From contig NZ_CP007035.1 of assembly GCF_000243115.2 (NCBI RefSeq), positions 3,720,001 through 3,784,000 of the forward strand: a stretch of DNA of 64,000 nt, given 5' to 3'. The notes under the pieces are model-generated. The model had not been told where the DNA came from. It made no database searches and saw only the letters and a program-made list of their open reading frames with translations. Source of the DNA: Niabella soli DSM 19437 (GTDB lineage: Bacteria; Bacteroidota; Bacteroidia; Chitinophagales; Chitinophagaceae). Numbering within the stretch: position 1 is the stretch's first letter; each line of letters starts with the position of its first letter. Positions 506 to 56,636 of this stretch are shown here, piece by piece. Both the position numbers and the translations under genes were made by a program.

Positions 506-3319
506 TCATACCACAATATTTACCATTTTGTTTTTAACATAAATGATCTTTTTGGGCGGTTTGCCATCCAGCCATTTTTGCACCACTTCGCTGGCCAGCA
601 CCAATTGTTCCACCTCTGGCTGTGTAGCTTCCAGCGAAAGAGTCATCGTAGTACGCATTTTACCATTAACAGAAATAGGATATTCTTTCTCTGATTCCTT
701 AATGTATGCTGCATTAAACACGGGAAACGGTTCGTCCAGGACACTGGTAGTATTCCCTAACGCATGCCATAATTCTTCTGCTATATGAGGGGCATAGGAA
801 GAGATCATGATCAGCAGCGGTTCCAGCACCTTTTTCTTATGCGCTTTCAGATCGGTCAGTTCATTCACCAGGATCATAAAGGCGCTTACACCGGTATTAA
901 AACTGAAGCGTTCGTTATCTTCTTCAATTTTTTTGATCGCTTTATGCAACACTTTTAATTCAGGCGGTGTTGGAGTGTCATTGGTCCAAAGGGCTTGCGC
1001 CTGCTGCGCTGTGCCCGGTACAGCATCCTTATAAAACAGGCGCCACAGCTTTTTCAAAAAGCGGTGCACGCCTTCAATGCCCTTGGTATCCCAGGGTTTG
1101 CTCATTTCTACGGGCCCCAGGAACATTTCGTACATACGAAAGGTATCGGCTCCGTATTTATTGACCAGGTCGTCAGGGTTTACCGTGTTGAATTTGGATT
1201 TGGACATTTTCTCTACCTCCGCACCGCAGGTATATTTTCCATCCTCCAGAATAAATTCAGCATTGGCAAACTCGCCATTACGCCACTGTTTGAATTTTTC
1301 AATATCCAATTCAAATCCGTCAACAATATTTACATCTACATGAATTTTATCAAGCAGTTTCCCTTCATAACTTTGTTCATTAGTAAGCAACCCATGCGAT
1401 ACAAAGGTGTTGGTGCCATTGATCCGGTACACAAAACGGCTGCTGCCCTGTATCATGCCCTGGTTTACCAATCTTTTAAAAGGCTCATCAAAGCTCAAAT
1501 ACCCCAGATCATACAACGCTTTTGTCCACATACGGCTGTAGAGTAAATGCCCCACCGCGTGTTCTGTTCCGCCGATATACAGGTCCACCTGGTTCCAGTA
1601 ATCCGTTGCCTGGCGGGAGGCAAACTCCGTGTCATTATGCGGATCCATATAGCGTAAAAAATACCAACTGGAGCCTGCATAGCCCGGCATGGTATTGGTT
1701 TCCAGTTCCTGTGCCACCCATTCGGGGATATTTGCCAAAGGGCCTTCGCCTTCAGGGCCCGGCTTGTAGCTGTCTACCGCCGGCAATTCGAGCGGCAGCG
1801 CAGCGGCGTCCAGTGCGTACGCGGTGCCGTTCTTCCATTGGATCGGGAAGGGCTCGCCCCAGTAACGCTGCCGGCTAAAGGCGGCGTCACGCATTTTATA
1901 ATTCACCTTGCGTTTGCCGATGCCTTTTTCTTCAATGGTTTGTATCACCAGTTCCATAGCTTCCCGCATGGGTATTCCATTTAGGAATCCGGAATTTTCC
2001 AAAACAGCGTCCTTTGTGGCATTGGCTTCTTCCCCATTAAAATGACTGCCGATAATATTGGTGATGGGGATATTGAAATGTTTTGCGAATTTAAAATCAC
2101 GCTCATCGCCACAAGGCACCGCCATAATAGCGCCCGTACCATAACCTGCTAAAACATATTCACTGATCCAGATGGGGATCAGCCGCCCGTCGAACGGATT
2201 AACCGCATAAGCGCCGGTAAAAACCCCACTGATCTTTTTTTCGGCCATCCGCTCCCGTTCGCTCCGGCTTTTTACATAAGCGATATAATCATCCACCGCG
2301 GTTGCCTGCTCCGGCGTTTTGATCTGATCAACAAGATCCAGTTCGGGCGCGATCACCATAAAGTCCACACCCATGATGGTATCGGGGCGGGTAGTGTAAA
2401 CGGTTAGCGTCAATGGTGAATGGTCAATGGCGAATTGGATCTCAGCACCGCTCGATTTTCCGATCCAGTTGGTCTGCATTTCCTTCATGGCTTCGCTGAA
2501 ATCCACTTCCTGTAAGCCTTTCAGCAGGCGGTCTGCATATTCGGTGATGCGCAGGTACCATTGACGCAATTTCTTTTTCACTACCGGGTAACCGCCCCGC
2601 TCACTAACGCCGTTTACCACTTCATCGTTGGCCAGCACCGTTCCCAGCGCCTCGCACCAGTTCACCTCTCCGTACCCGCAATAAGCCAGGCGGTATTCCA
2701 TTAGGACGGTTTGTTGGGTGGCTGCATCAAATGCCAGCCATTCTTCCGCTGTAAAAATTGGATGTTTAAAATTGGATATTCGAAATTTTTCATTCGGGAA
2801 CGGATGATTTTTATTTCCTTCTTTCTCAAACAGCGCAATCAATTCGGGGATCGGCGTTGCCTTTTGCGTTTGCCGGTTAAACCAACTGTTGAACAACTGC
2901 AGGAAGATCCATTGCGTCCATTTGTAATAATGAGGGTCACTGGTGCGCACTTCGCGTGTCCAGTCGAAGCAAAAGCCTATATTATCCAATTGTTTGCGGA
3001 AGGTGGCAATATTCTTATCTGTAGAAACGGCGGGATGAATACCGTTTTCAATCGCATATTGTTCTGCAGGAAGGCCAAAAGCATCATATCCCATCGGATG
3101 CAGCACGTTAAAACCTTTCAGCCGCTTGTACCGGGAAAAGATGTCGCTGGCGATATATCCTAAGGGATGGCCTACATGCAAACCGGCGCCGCTGGGGTAA
3201 GGAAACATATCCAGCACATAATACTTGGGTTTAGCCGTGTTATTGGAAACGGTATACTCACCTTCTTCCACCCATGTTCTTTGCCATTTACGCTCTATTT
3301 CATTAAAATTATATTCCAT
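506..3319 (-). CDS. leuS: Leucyl-tRNA synthetase
   Basis: Cytoplasmic class I aminoacyl-tRNA synthetase that charges tRNA-Leu. The HIGH-type motif lies in PYPSGAGLHVGHPLGY near residues 41-56, the KMSKS loop appears as EKMSKSKFNTVN in the last third, and the CP1 editing region contains YTTRPDTI. At 937 residues it is within the usual bacterial range. The start MEYNFNEIERKW is standard for the family. Two variable stretches (about residues 174-189 and 294-304) are encoded by DNA resembling this genome's degenerate intergenic repeats (see findings). A Bacteroidota -7 box lies 44 bases upstream, and the gene is transcribed alone. Confidence 0.97.
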   Translation of the reverse strand: MEYNFNEIERKWQRTWVEEGEYTVSNNTAKPKYYVLDMFPYPSGAGLHVGHPLGYIASDIFSRYKRLKGFNVLHPMGYDAFGLPAEQYAIENGIHPAVSTDKNIATFRKQLDNIGFCFDWTREVRTSDPHYYKWTQWIFLQLFNSWFNRQTQKATPIPELIALFEKEGNKNHPFPNEKFRISNFKHPIFTAEEWLAFDAATQQTVLMEYRLAYCGYGEVNWCEALGTVLANDEVVNGVSERGGYPVVKKKLRQWYLRITEYADRLLKGLQEVDFSEAMKEMQTNWIGKSSGAEIQFAIDHSPLTLTVYTTRPDTIMGVDFMVIAPELDLVDQIKTPEQATAVDDYIAYVKSRSERERMAEKKISGVFTGAYAVNPFDGRLIPIWISEYVLAGYGTGAIMAVPCGDERDFKFAKHFNIPITNIIGSHFNGEEANATKDAVLENSGFLNGIPMREAMELVIQTIEEKGIGKRKVNYKMRDAAFSRQRYWGEPFPIQWKNGTAYALDAAALPLELPAVDSYKPGPEGEGPLANIPEWVAQELETNTMPGYAGSSWYFLRYMDPHNDTEFASRQATDYWNQVDLYIGGTEHAVGHLLYSRMWTKALYDLGYLSFDEPFKRLVNQGMIQGSSRFVYRINGTNTFVSHGLLTNEQSYEGKLLDKIHVDVNIVDGFELDIEKFKQWRNGEFANAEFILEDGKYTCGAEVEKMSKSKFNTVNPDDLVNKYGADTFRMYEMFLGPVEMSKPWDTKGIEGVHRFLKKLWRLFYKDAVPGTAQQAQALWTNDTPTPPELKVLHKAIKKIEEDNERFSFNTGVSAFMILVNELTDLKAHKKKVLEPLLIMISSYAPHIAEELWHALGNTTSVLDEPFPVFNAAYIKESEKEYPISVNGKMRTTMTLSLEATQPEVEQLVLASEVVQKWLDGKPPKKIIYVKNKMVNIVV

Positions 3320-55127: not shown

Positions 55128-55769
55128 ATGCAATTGACTGTTATTCAGCAAAGAATTTATGAGATAAAGGGACAACGCGTTATGCTCGATTTTGATCTGG
55201 CCAGTCTGTACCAAATTGAGACCAAAAGACTGAAAGAGGCCGTAAGACGAAATAAAAAACGCTTTCCGGAAGATTTTATGTTTGAGCTTACCAAAGTGGA
55301 ATACGAGCAGTTAAAGGCGCATTGTTTGGATTTGAGCTCTGGAAATGACACCGAAGCCGCTACCGCAGCGGATTGTTTAAGGTCGCAAATTGCGTCCTTA
55401 AACAATCCTGTTGCTGCTGATGGGCAAAGGATTGCTTCGAAAAGAGGGCGGCATTCAAAATACCTGCCTTTTGCTTTTACCGAACATGGTGTAACGATGT
55501 TAGCATCTGTTTTAAACAGTGGCAGAGCTATAGAAATGAATATTGACATTGTTCGGGCCTTTATAAGTTTACGGCAATTAGCCATAGAGCATAAAGATTT
55601 TATACAACAACTGAAAAATTTGAGAACGGAATTACATGAACGTATTGATGTGCATGATGCCCAACTAGGGCAGATATATGAGGCTTTGGAAAATATGCTG
55701 GACACAGAAGCTGAAAAGAAAGCCAAAGAAGATGCCTGGAAAGACCGGAAACGGATTGGGTATAGATAA
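55128..55769 (+). CDS. ORF6N-domain (phage-type regulatory) protein
   Basis: A 213-residue protein with an N-terminal ORF6N domain: IYEIKGQRVMLDFDLASLYQ and RFPEDFMFELTKVEYEQL, then YLPFAFTEHGVTMLASVLNS. These domains come from phages and mobile elements and are thought to bind DNA. The segment around residues 82-97 includes LRSQIASLNN, encoded by one half of a 39-base palindrome (see finding). The C-terminal half is coiled. No other phage genes are near, so it may be a stray domesticated gene. Confidence 0.88.
   Translation: MQLTVIQQRIYEIKGQRVMLDFDLASLYQIETKRLKEAVRRNKKRFPEDFMFELTKVEYEQLKAHCLDLSSGNDTEAATAADCLRSQIASLNNPVAADGQRIASKRGRHSKYLPFAFTEHGVTMLASVLNSGRAIEMNIDIVRAFISLRQLAIEHKDFIQQLKNLRTELHERIDVHDAQLGQIYEALENMLDTEAEKKAKEDAWKDRKRIGYR
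55370..55408. repeat. 39-base near-perfect palindrome inside the ORF6N gene
   Basis: GGATTGTTTAAGG, T, CGCAA, a central A, TTGCG, T, CCTTAAACAATCC: 13-bp and 5-bp arms with a single T/T mismatch and a one-base centre at 55389. A further GCAGC/GCTGC pair can extend it after a bulge. Confidence 0.85.
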
Positions 55770-55800: not shown

Positions 55801-55830
55801 AAAAAACCCTCACAACCGAAGCTGCAAGGG
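55801..55830 (-). terminator. Rho-independent terminator of the tRNA-like RNA
   Basis: Minus strand CCCTTGCAGC, TTCG, GTTGTGAGGG, then six T: a 10-bp stem with G-U pairs, a UUCG tetraloop and a U run. It lies 13 bases beyond the end of the tRNA-like fold and could also end the ORF6N gene weakly on the plus strand. Confidence 0.85.
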
Positions 55831-55842
55831 TTTAAATAATGC

Positions 55843-56015
55843 TGTAGGGGGAGGGCTCGAACCTCCACGAGGCAGTTAGCCGCAACACAAAATCCGTGGT
55901 GGTCAACCCCGGTCGGTTTCAACCGAAGCAGAAACCGGCTCTATGCTGTGTTTATCCTGGACTCCTCACCCCCGAGACAAGAGGGCATGTCTGCCAAAAA
56001 TTTCATCACCCCACA
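55843..56015 (-). ncRNA. tRNA-Leu-like RNA with ~85-nt insertion in the variable arm
   Basis: A 173-nt RNA that folds on paper as a cloverleaf of leucine class. Acceptor TGTGGGG/CCCTACA; D arm ATG/CAT with a GG-containing loop; anticodon arm CCCTC-TTGTCTC-GGGGG (GTC at the anticodon place); T arm GGAGG-TTCGAGC-CCTCC. The variable arm GAGGAGT/ACTGCCTC encloses about 85 nt with a CGGTTTC/GAAACCG hairpin (55937-55914) and a possible crossing pairing AACACA/TGTGTT. No CCA is encoded. It has its own promoter, leader hairpin and terminator. It is not a recognisable tmRNA or RNase P RNA. Function unknown. Confidence 0.7.
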
Positions 56016-56016
56016 A

Positions 56017-56038
56017 TGTAAAAGAACCGCTTTTTACA
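56017..56038 (-). other. Leader hairpin before the tRNA-like RNA
   Basis: TGTAAAA/TTTTACA (56017-56023 with 56032-56038) forms a 7-bp stem directly 5' of the acceptor stem on the minus strand, as in precursor tRNAs that need 5' processing. Confidence 0.55.
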
Positions 56039-56051
56039 GCGTTTGATAGAA

Positions 56052-56084
56052 CAAAAATACCCATTTTGACCATGTGATTCCAAA
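56052..56084 (-). promoter_or_regulatory. Promoter of the tRNA-like RNA (-33 and -7)
   Basis: On the minus strand TTTG (56084-56081), 21 bases of spacer, then TATTTTTG (56059-56052): the complete Bacteroidota promoter pattern, about 37 bases upstream of the fold. Confidence 0.7.
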
Positions 56085-56168
56085 TAATTCAAGAAAAATT
56101 TTGAAAATATAGAAAATGTTTAAATATTTGCAATGATTGTTAAATTATTTAAAATCAATATTGCCTAA

Positions 56169-56636
56169 ATGAACAATAAATTGAATCTCGACAAACTGGA
56201 TCTCCAGATCATTCAGCATATGATGGAAGATGCTGAAATTTCCTATGCAGATCTTGGTAAAAAATTATTTGTATCTGGCGGAACCATTCACGTGCGTATT
56301 AAAAAATTGCAAAAGGATGGTATTGTGAAAGGTACGAAATTAAACACAGATTTAAAGCTTTTAGGCTATGATGTTATTGCATTTATCGGAATTTATCTGA
56401 AAGAAAGTTCCCTGTATGATTCTGTTGCCAAAGAATTATACAAATTAAAAGAAGTGGTGCGGTTAAATTACACCACGGGGAATTACAGCATGTTTGCCGA
56501 AATTATTTGTAAAGATATTAGCGAGCTGCGCGTGGTATTACATGAAAAATTGCAGAAGATAAAAGGAATTGAAAGAACAGAAACCCTGATCTCGCTTGAG
56601 GAAAGCTTTTCGAGGAATGTACGGGTACTGGATTAG
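56169..56636 (+). CDS. Lrp/AsnC-family transcriptional regulator
   Basis: A 155-residue regulator with an N-terminal winged helix (LDLQIIQHMMEDAEISYADL and FVSGGTIHVRIKKLQKDG) and a C-terminal RAM-type sensor domain (KEVVRLNYTTGNYSMFAEII). It probably responds to an amino acid or related metabolite. It is transcribed alone and divergent from the tRNA-like RNA, with AT-rich DNA between. Confidence 0.93.
   Translation: MNNKLNLDKLDLQIIQHMMEDAEISYADLGKKLFVSGGTIHVRIKKLQKDGIVKGTKLNTDLKLLGYDVIAFIGIYLKESSLYDSVAKELYKLKEVVRLNYTTGNYSMFAEIICKDISELRVVLHEKLQKIKGIERTETLISLEESFSRNVRVLD

Follow-up and report, generated by a model that had tools for sequence, protein, structure and literature searches.

The closest described system is the synthesis of asparagine on tRNA-Asn, which in Bdellovibrio, Deinococcus and Thermus is carried out by a non-discriminating AspRS together with GatCAB (PMC4206432, in the part drawn on here). 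The same part of that paper lists 18 genera, some of them Bacteroidetes, that have AsnRS, GlnRS and GatCAB and no asparagine synthetase, a combination noted there as a puzzle, and the carrier it considers is tRNA-Asn, which requires a relaxed AspRS. According to the portion of PMC9976931 used here, the strong aspartate determinants are G73, G34, U35, C36 and C38, with G2-C71 as a minor one, the G1-C72 pair of bacterial tRNA-Asp helps AspRS to place the 3' end, and amidation of aspartyl-tRNA-Asn is conferred by U1-A72 whereas in tRNA-Asp it is prevented by G1-C72 and U20a. We describe here a tRNA-like RNA of Niabella soli DSM 19437 that is likely, in our judgement, to be a dedicated, non-decoding tRNA mimic acting as the RNA cofactor of tRNA-dependent asparagine biosynthesis, a reading built on the family, the fold, the identity elements, the gene neighbourhood, co-occurrence and the exclusion of full-length AsnB.

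The window, by which we mean the whole stretch of 64,000 nucleotides analysed (contig NZ_CP007035.1, positions 3,720,001 to 3,784,000), carries the gene for this RNA on its minus strand at 55841-56016, with ends set by alignment and by covariance-model boundaries. An earlier note on this DNA had described a cloverleaf of 173 nt; the cloverleaf stands, but the length is 176 nt when base -1 and the encoded C74 are counted. The parts, all on the minus strand, are the 5' strand of the acceptor stem, reading U(-1), U1, G2, U3 onward (56009-56016), a Leu-like D arm with G18 G19 C20 A21 and without base 20a (55987-56006), an anticodon arm CCCUC/GGGGG (55969-55985) whose loop UUGUCUC (55974-55980) holds the aspartate determinants G34 U35 C36 and C38 and a pyrimidine at 37, a giant variable arm of 99 nt (55869-55967), a T arm with the loop UUCGAGC (55850-55866), and the 3' strand of the acceptor stem with the discriminator G73 and the encoded C74 (55841-55849). 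The acceptor, D, anticodon and T arms are all there, as is a long variable arm, and the gene parts that the note described are indeed found in the sequence, with pairing supported by relatives. The UUCG-loop terminator it reported was also found, as an intrinsic terminator with a 13-pair stem and a UUCG-type loop on the minus strand (55833-55804). The Bacteroidota-type -33/-7 promoter is there too (minus strand, 56084-56052), but it counts only for its place because such matches are at chance level in the window, 4 being found and 4.2 expected. That no CCA is encoded, which had been taken as an oddity, is true but ordinary here because only 5 of the 44 tRNA genes called by ARAGORN encode CCA, while C74 is encoded in all 44 (counted in the genome stretches examined, a few of whose loci overlap). 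An ORF6N-domain protein gene (window 55128-55769) converges on the RNA gene, and a similar gene lies in two loci of the same genus, L049 and L050.

ARAGORN did not recognise the RNA locus in the window, Rfam, RF00005 included, gave no match at gathering score in the window, and YrlA, tmRNA and RNase P gave none at gathering in the window and none up to E 10 at the locus. Since Rfam thus offers no confident match to a known family, tRNA, tmRNA, RNase P and YrlA included, the opinion that no named family fits has held up, and the comparison with Y RNAs that accompanied it finds no support there. The RNA is unique in its own genome, where the family model described below scores it at 117 bits and the runner-up, an ordinary type II tRNA, at 56.5 bits.

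Folded as a single sequence the RNA only mildly beats its shuffles (z -2.0), and the evidence for the fold is therefore comparative. In 12 short or outgroup RNAs all 336 of 336 cells are paired, both partners are changed in 12 of the 28 pairs, and covariation scores 0.44, as against 0.23 when shuffled and 0.08-0.12 when slid. In 77 distinct rows 99.0% of 2145 cells are paired, 17 of the 28 pairs are changed on both sides and none of 500 shuffles reaches the covariation score, although this larger alignment leans towards structure because it was fitted to the model. Homologues with compensatory changes, which the note proposed to look for in relatives, therefore exist, and its view that this is not simple decay is supported. 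The variable arm is made up, as covariation indicates, of an outer 4-bp stem (GAGG/CCUC), a freely covarying 3-bp stem (CAG/CUG), a conserved internal loop of GAUAAA (55951-55956, minus strand) opposite CUAA (55876-55879, minus strand), and an inner domain that differs between clades and is at its smallest a short hairpin, at its largest an extensive structure. Reading the GAUAAA/CUAA loop as Twister-like or riboswitch-like was dropped, as Rfam gave this no support. Since some members of the family are only 110-130 nt long and the inner domain changes between clades, the RNA is not a tRNA with one insertion, as had been suggested.

By blastn the RNA was found in 37 of 59 genomes, its own genome counted. 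For a covariance model, R1, we took 12 outgroup and short members from the rows parsed by a motif, which required TC[TC]C within the anticodon loop together with AGC at the 3' end. When R1 was run on 296 genomes of the phylum there was, among the matches listed and under stricter filters, a clean score gap between family members, at 91-130 bits and 110-197 nt, and ordinary tRNAs, which reach at most 65 bits and are mostly near 85 nt in length; one more family member scored 82 bits, and the presence of the RNA in our samples was read from this gap, that is, at least 82 bits as against at most 65 bits. Among 80 of the 120 loci found the named hosts include Chitinophaga, Niabella, Terrimonas, Flavihumibacter, Segetibacter, Saprospiraceae, Algoriphagus, Cyclobacterium, Belliella, Echinicola, Fulvivirga and Marinoscillum. 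The family spans Chitinophagaceae, Saprospiraceae, Cyclobacteriaceae, other Bacteroidota and large phages; seven contigs listed as viral in IMG/VR carry the RNA, in three of them adjoining tRNA genes (L091, L093 and L094), and so does a 636 kb uncultured phage record, within a 10 kb stretch holding nine ARAGORN genes.

Several observations were made in passing. Two or three neighbouring copies of the RNA occur in L016, L022, L034, L038, L073, L074 and L128, one long and one short in L016 and L022. In a GatB-bearing genome, L217 has at 1501-1578 (minus strand) a 78-nt relative without the giant arm, with the loop CTATCTC (manual reading) and the same UGU/ACAGC acceptor end. The IMG/VR contigs also hold a second kind of odd tRNA-like RNA, with near-constant Leu-like ends, AGTCAGGTGGCGGAATGGTAGACGC ... 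ACAGGTTCGAATCCTGTCCTGACTAC, and a middle part that is different in each copy and where no normal anticodon arm was seen (L090 9979-10113 and 4587-4707; L091 10173-10281, 10394-10518 and 10650-10809; L094 3169-3299). As to the literature, no such RNA was found among the matches listed in open-access papers, subscription papers and preprints being outside the scope and several of the queries having been aimed at other points; the parts consulted of PMC11109978 and PMC8632094, which report RNA discovery in 50 and 26 genomes, mention neither Bacteroidetes nor AsnC nor Chitinophaga. The family is undetected by Rfam 15.

Conservation was counted in 79 distinct RNAs, namely the 77 distinct rows of alignment A4, whose loci were obtained by blastn, by place and by R1, and the loci L235 and L239. 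Among 195 distinct matches 164 were parsed, and the 31 others consisted of 14 ordinary tRNAs or other RNAs, 13 members with other stems, which were re-parsed, and 4 that were cut or unparsed. The contig and viral scans relied on a pattern in which most of the GUCUC loop was fixed, and their loci were excluded from the count, which is nevertheless biased in that R1 was seeded from motif-parsed rows and similarity searches favour conserved positions. So counted, U35, C36 and C38 are present in 79/79 and position 34 is G in 78 and C in one (L076). U1, G2, C71, A72, G73 and C74 are each found in 79/79, and hence the pairs U1-A72 and G2-C71 are constant; base 20a is missing in 79/79. The GUC anticodon and the U at position 1, which the earlier note had listed as oddities, are real but turn out to be among the most constant features, and they point to AspRS and GatCAB. 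Its leucine-like body is likewise real in the D arm but hides the identity, the discriminator being G73 throughout. Bacterial leucine identity uses A73 (PMC9976931, in the portion used), and leucine identity was ruled out by G73. For serine the table in that portion gives G73 and a large arm, which the RNA shares, together with C72 and C11-G24, which it does not keep, and serine identity was rejected as well. What speaks against the cofactor reading is that U1-A72 replaces the G1-C72 of tRNA-Asp, which occurs in 0/79, and that G10 is rare (7/79). The ordinary tRNA-Asp of the same genome is present and has G1-C72 and, by manual numbering, a 20a base, and the rule on U20a may be weak here because the genome's own tRNA-Asn has U1-A72 with a 20a base.

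The RNA, the AsnC-like gene, AsnA, GatB and AsnB were searched for in one sample of 117 Chitinophagaceae genomes, drawn with the same settings each time, GatCAB being read from GatB alone. The RNA and GatB occur together in 83 genomes, the RNA alone in one (G392, an assembly of 510 contigs), GatB alone in two (G360 and G431) and neither in 31, which gives a Fisher p of 8e-25 that overstates independence because the genomes are related and shared ancestry inflates it. In G431 a contig end falls inside the RNA, leaving a 53-nt partial match of 54 bits, and in G360 a contig ends after what would be the first 8 bases of the RNA, which is consistent but weak; if both are counted as bearers of the RNA the table becomes 85, 1, 0 and 31. 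The class and family tables rest on hand-compiled lists of matches, those for the family having been checked. In the sample of the class Bacteroidia (n=73) 29 genomes have both, none the RNA only, four GatB only and 40 neither, and outside Chitinophagaceae the same sample gives 20, 0, 4 and 38. Of the four genomes with GatB only (G127, G096, G209 and G257), loci were inspected in two: G127 holds a relative of 78 nt in which the giant arm is missing and position 34 is A, and the best match in G096 is merely an ordinary tRNA-Leu. Beyond the class Bacteroidia GatB is common without the RNA, as expected if GatB serves decoding there, and one family, f66 (2 genomes), has both. Co-occurrence of the RNA with GatB alone leaves substrate and regulator undivided, and it is the direction and the exceptions that matter and not the p-value.

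With E. coli AsnB as query at 1e-30, 16 of the 117 genomes were matched. Full-length AsnB of the E. coli type (65-69%) is present in six, none with the RNA or GatB, the copy in G395 having an internal stop; the matches in the other ten, seven of which bear the RNA, are partial or weaker. AsnA is over the cut-off in three of the 117, one of them RNA-bearing (G373). It follows that 83 of the 84 RNA-bearing genomes are without AsnA over the cut-off and without full-length AsnB, and therefore, unless they are auxotrophs, they need another route to asparagine. Among the 33 RNA-free genomes seven have AsnA or full-length AsnB and most show neither. In genus g11 one genome (G026) has the RNA and GatB and another (G420) has neither and has AsnA. 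G373 has the RNA, GatB and AsnA; in this genome the AsnA gene and gatB lie within 8 kb of each other (L312 4026-12002), a stretch that also holds what we take to be aspartate ammonia-lyase-like and asparaginase-like genes.

In the RNA-bearing, GatB-bearing genome G422, of which 2.0 of 2.84 Mb was read, there are an AsnRS (53% to E. coli), a GlnRS (58%) and one AspRS (45%), and AsnB has distant matches only (28-29%). Since AsnRS and GlnRS are encoded there, decoding of Asn or Gln in this one genome seems not to depend on GatCAB. The AsnRS gene (L330 7470-8846) and the pair of RNA and AsnC-like gene are some 6 kb apart. Histidine at the place of Leu30 of E. coli AspRS marks relaxed enzymes, and at a glance the AspRS of G422 has Phe there. 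The 31 genomes without the RNA and GatB presumably use direct charging.

Divergent from the RNA gene is a gene for a regulator of the Lrp/AsnC family (56169-56636, plus strand), and the intergenic region 56017-56168 (no strand assigned) is common to both. Its best NCBIfam match among 11 families is AsnC (NF008384) at 165 bits, Lrp scoring 53 bits, and we call it AsnC-like only, because 165 bits is below the curated AsnC score of 227 bits. Leucine sensing was dropped since the regulator is nearer AsnC than Lrp. The AsnC-like gene is divergent within 300 nt of the RNA in 89 of 138 parsed loci and in 41 of 54 among the loci below L088, in a count from which the duplicates L003, L039-L052, L056, L063 and L064 were removed by hand, in which some genomes are counted twice (for example L035 + L157 and L013 + L139) and several loci fail the strict motif, and for which many stretches are only 3 kb. 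The divergent AsnC-like gene extends to a genome family from a different class (L073 and L074), but it is missing beside the RNA in Saprospiraceae, Algoriphagus-type Cyclobacteriaceae and phage contigs, and for that reason the adjacency is not essential. Among the 117 Chitinophagaceae 83 have both the RNA and the AsnC-like gene, one the RNA only (G390), six the regulator only and 27 neither; for the AsnC-like gene and GatB the numbers are 84 with both, five with AsnC only, one with GatB only and 27 with neither. The six genomes with the regulator and no RNA match are G356, G357, G428, G429, G360 and G431, and the first four all have full-length AsnB, as though asparagine synthesis had kept its regulator through a change of route. 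AsnA was rejected as the target of the regulator because it is over the cut-off in only three of the 117. In a further genome of the window's own genus (G007, locus L236) the AsnC-like gene is kept (90%), with no RNA next to it and none scoring over 53 bits in other places.

The strongest rival of the cofactor reading, and one that shares most of its evidence, is that the RNA is a regulatory RNA which binds AspRS or GatCAB (or AsnC), acting there as an inhibitor or by sensing aspartate/asparagine status, and is not a carrier of asparagine. The same identity elements and the same co-occurrence would serve it, the divergent AsnC-like regulator suits it, and the elaborate conserved inner domain would be unnecessary for mere charging. 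Nevertheless, a pure binder need not keep U1-A72 and lack base 20a in 79/79, and neither AsnA nor full-length AsnB is present in 83 of 84 RNA-bearing genomes; we therefore regard it as unlikely, though deserving to be carried along.

A small regulatory RNA that base-pairs through the anticodon loop or the GGGUUGACCAC loop and has nothing to do with asparagine is highly improbable. Unpaired stretches are indeed conserved; however, the motif GG(G/A)U(U/C)GACCAC, present here in the inner domain (55899-55909, minus strand), occurs in 44/79 members, all longer than 135 nt, and is missing in 35/79, and such an RNA would leave the conservation of the acceptor end and the correlation with GatB unexplained. 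A kissing-dimer reading of GGUUGACC was set aside as the motif is missing in those 35 members.

A decoding tRNA requires U33 and a purine at 37. In the 79 RNAs position 32 is U in 50 and C in 29, position 33 is U in 60, C in 11, A in 6 and G in 2, that is, other than U in 19/79, and position 37 is U in 74 and C in 5, a pyrimidine in 79/79. An unusual decoding tRNA, either for Asp codons or as a Leu isoacceptor with an insertion, is thus scarcely credible in spite of the full cloverleaf, the GUC anticodon and the Leu-like D arm, the more so as an ordinary tRNA-Asp is in the genome and G73 stands in 79/79 where bacterial tRNA-Leu has A73. Nor is a decoding role left to a second copy, as the tandem short copies in G024 and G025 retain the same loop. 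It is just as hard to credit a tRNA-like decoy or phage-derived RNA that shields tRNA-Asp-type anticodons from anticodon nucleases, for although the seven IMG/VR contigs and the 636 kb phage record carry the RNA, several adjoining tRNA genes, this reading predicts neither the near-perfect match with GatB nor the AsnC-like neighbour, and chromosomal copies are far commoner in the sequences searched.

We return to the dedicated cofactor of asparagine synthesis, which agrees with one of the possibilities raised in the earlier note, a tRNA mimic with a new function; that the RNA is such a mimic with a function outside decoding is the most likely reading. Judged from its bases, the RNA appears to join features read by AspRS to features read by GatCAB and to drop those read by the ribosome, purine 37 and U33. 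From this we infer transcription, end processing, CCA addition, charging, amidation, release of asparagine and a role for the giant arm, as follows. The RNA would be transcribed beside the AsnC-like regulator, processed at its ends as tRNAs are and supplied with CCA, and AspRS would load aspartate on it by way of G34, U35, C36, C38 and G73. Since U1-A72 is present and G1-C72 and U20a are missing, GatCAB would accept the Asp-RNA and amidate the bound aspartate to asparagine. Since its bases at 33 and 37 and its giant variable arm seem unsuited to decoding, the Asn-RNA would be unable to mistranslate Asp codons, and the asparagine would then be freed for AsnRS and metabolism. The giant arm may block EF-Tu and the ribosome, offer docking or aid release; that it also docks or holds the enzymes is probable but is the least certain step. 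An RNA that serves as a handle for asparagine would explain why an enzyme seemingly unneeded by protein synthesis is retained. The pathway is probably a variant of tRNA-dependent asparagine synthesis with, as we propose, a dedicated carrier excluded from translation.

A wider view, for which we see about as much to hope as to doubt, is that this is a metabolic RNA of a new class, in which a former tRNA has been withdrawn from translation and turned into a lasting cofactor for the making of amino acids; its giant arm would scaffold AspRS and GatCAB and perhaps promote release of asparagine, the regulator would sense asparagine, and huge phages would carry the RNA to feed their own translation. 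If the cofactor reading is true, a dedicated RNA with an Asp anticodon removes the need for a relaxed AspRS and avoids mistranslation, and a structured-RNA family across much of a phylum is used as a biosynthetic cofactor.

In comparison with known systems, the proposal is like the tRNA-Asn route, as presented in the part of PMC4206432 used here, in that AspRS puts aspartate on an RNA which GatCAB amidates by way of U1-A72, and in that this route is reported there beside AsnRS and GlnRS and without AsnA/AsnB. It differs in that the carrier of that route is the ordinary decoding tRNA-Asn, whereas the carrier proposed here is an RNA in its own right that has an Asp anticodon, is seemingly unfit for decoding, has a 99-nt variable arm in the window and would be chargeable by an AspRS specific for tRNA-Asp. 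With tRNA-Asp the RNA has in common G34 U35 C36, C38, G73 and G2-C71, but unlike tRNA-Asp it has U1-A72, no base 20a, a pyrimidine at 37, a long variable arm and a Leu-like D arm. It resembles tRNA-Leu and other type II tRNAs in D-arm sequence and in having a long variable arm, and differs from them in G73 in place of A73, in the GUC loop and in the giant structured arm. To YrlA and the Y-RNA tRNA mimics the likeness is one of tRNA-like shape only, whereas the RNA described here is without an Rfam match and has a full cloverleaf with synthetase determinants. The cell-wall tRNA-Gly of S. aureus and the pseudo-tRNA of B. cereus are tRNA-shaped RNAs with non-decoding roles, and these translation-excluded tRNAs differ from the present RNA in amino acid, pathway, structure and lineage.
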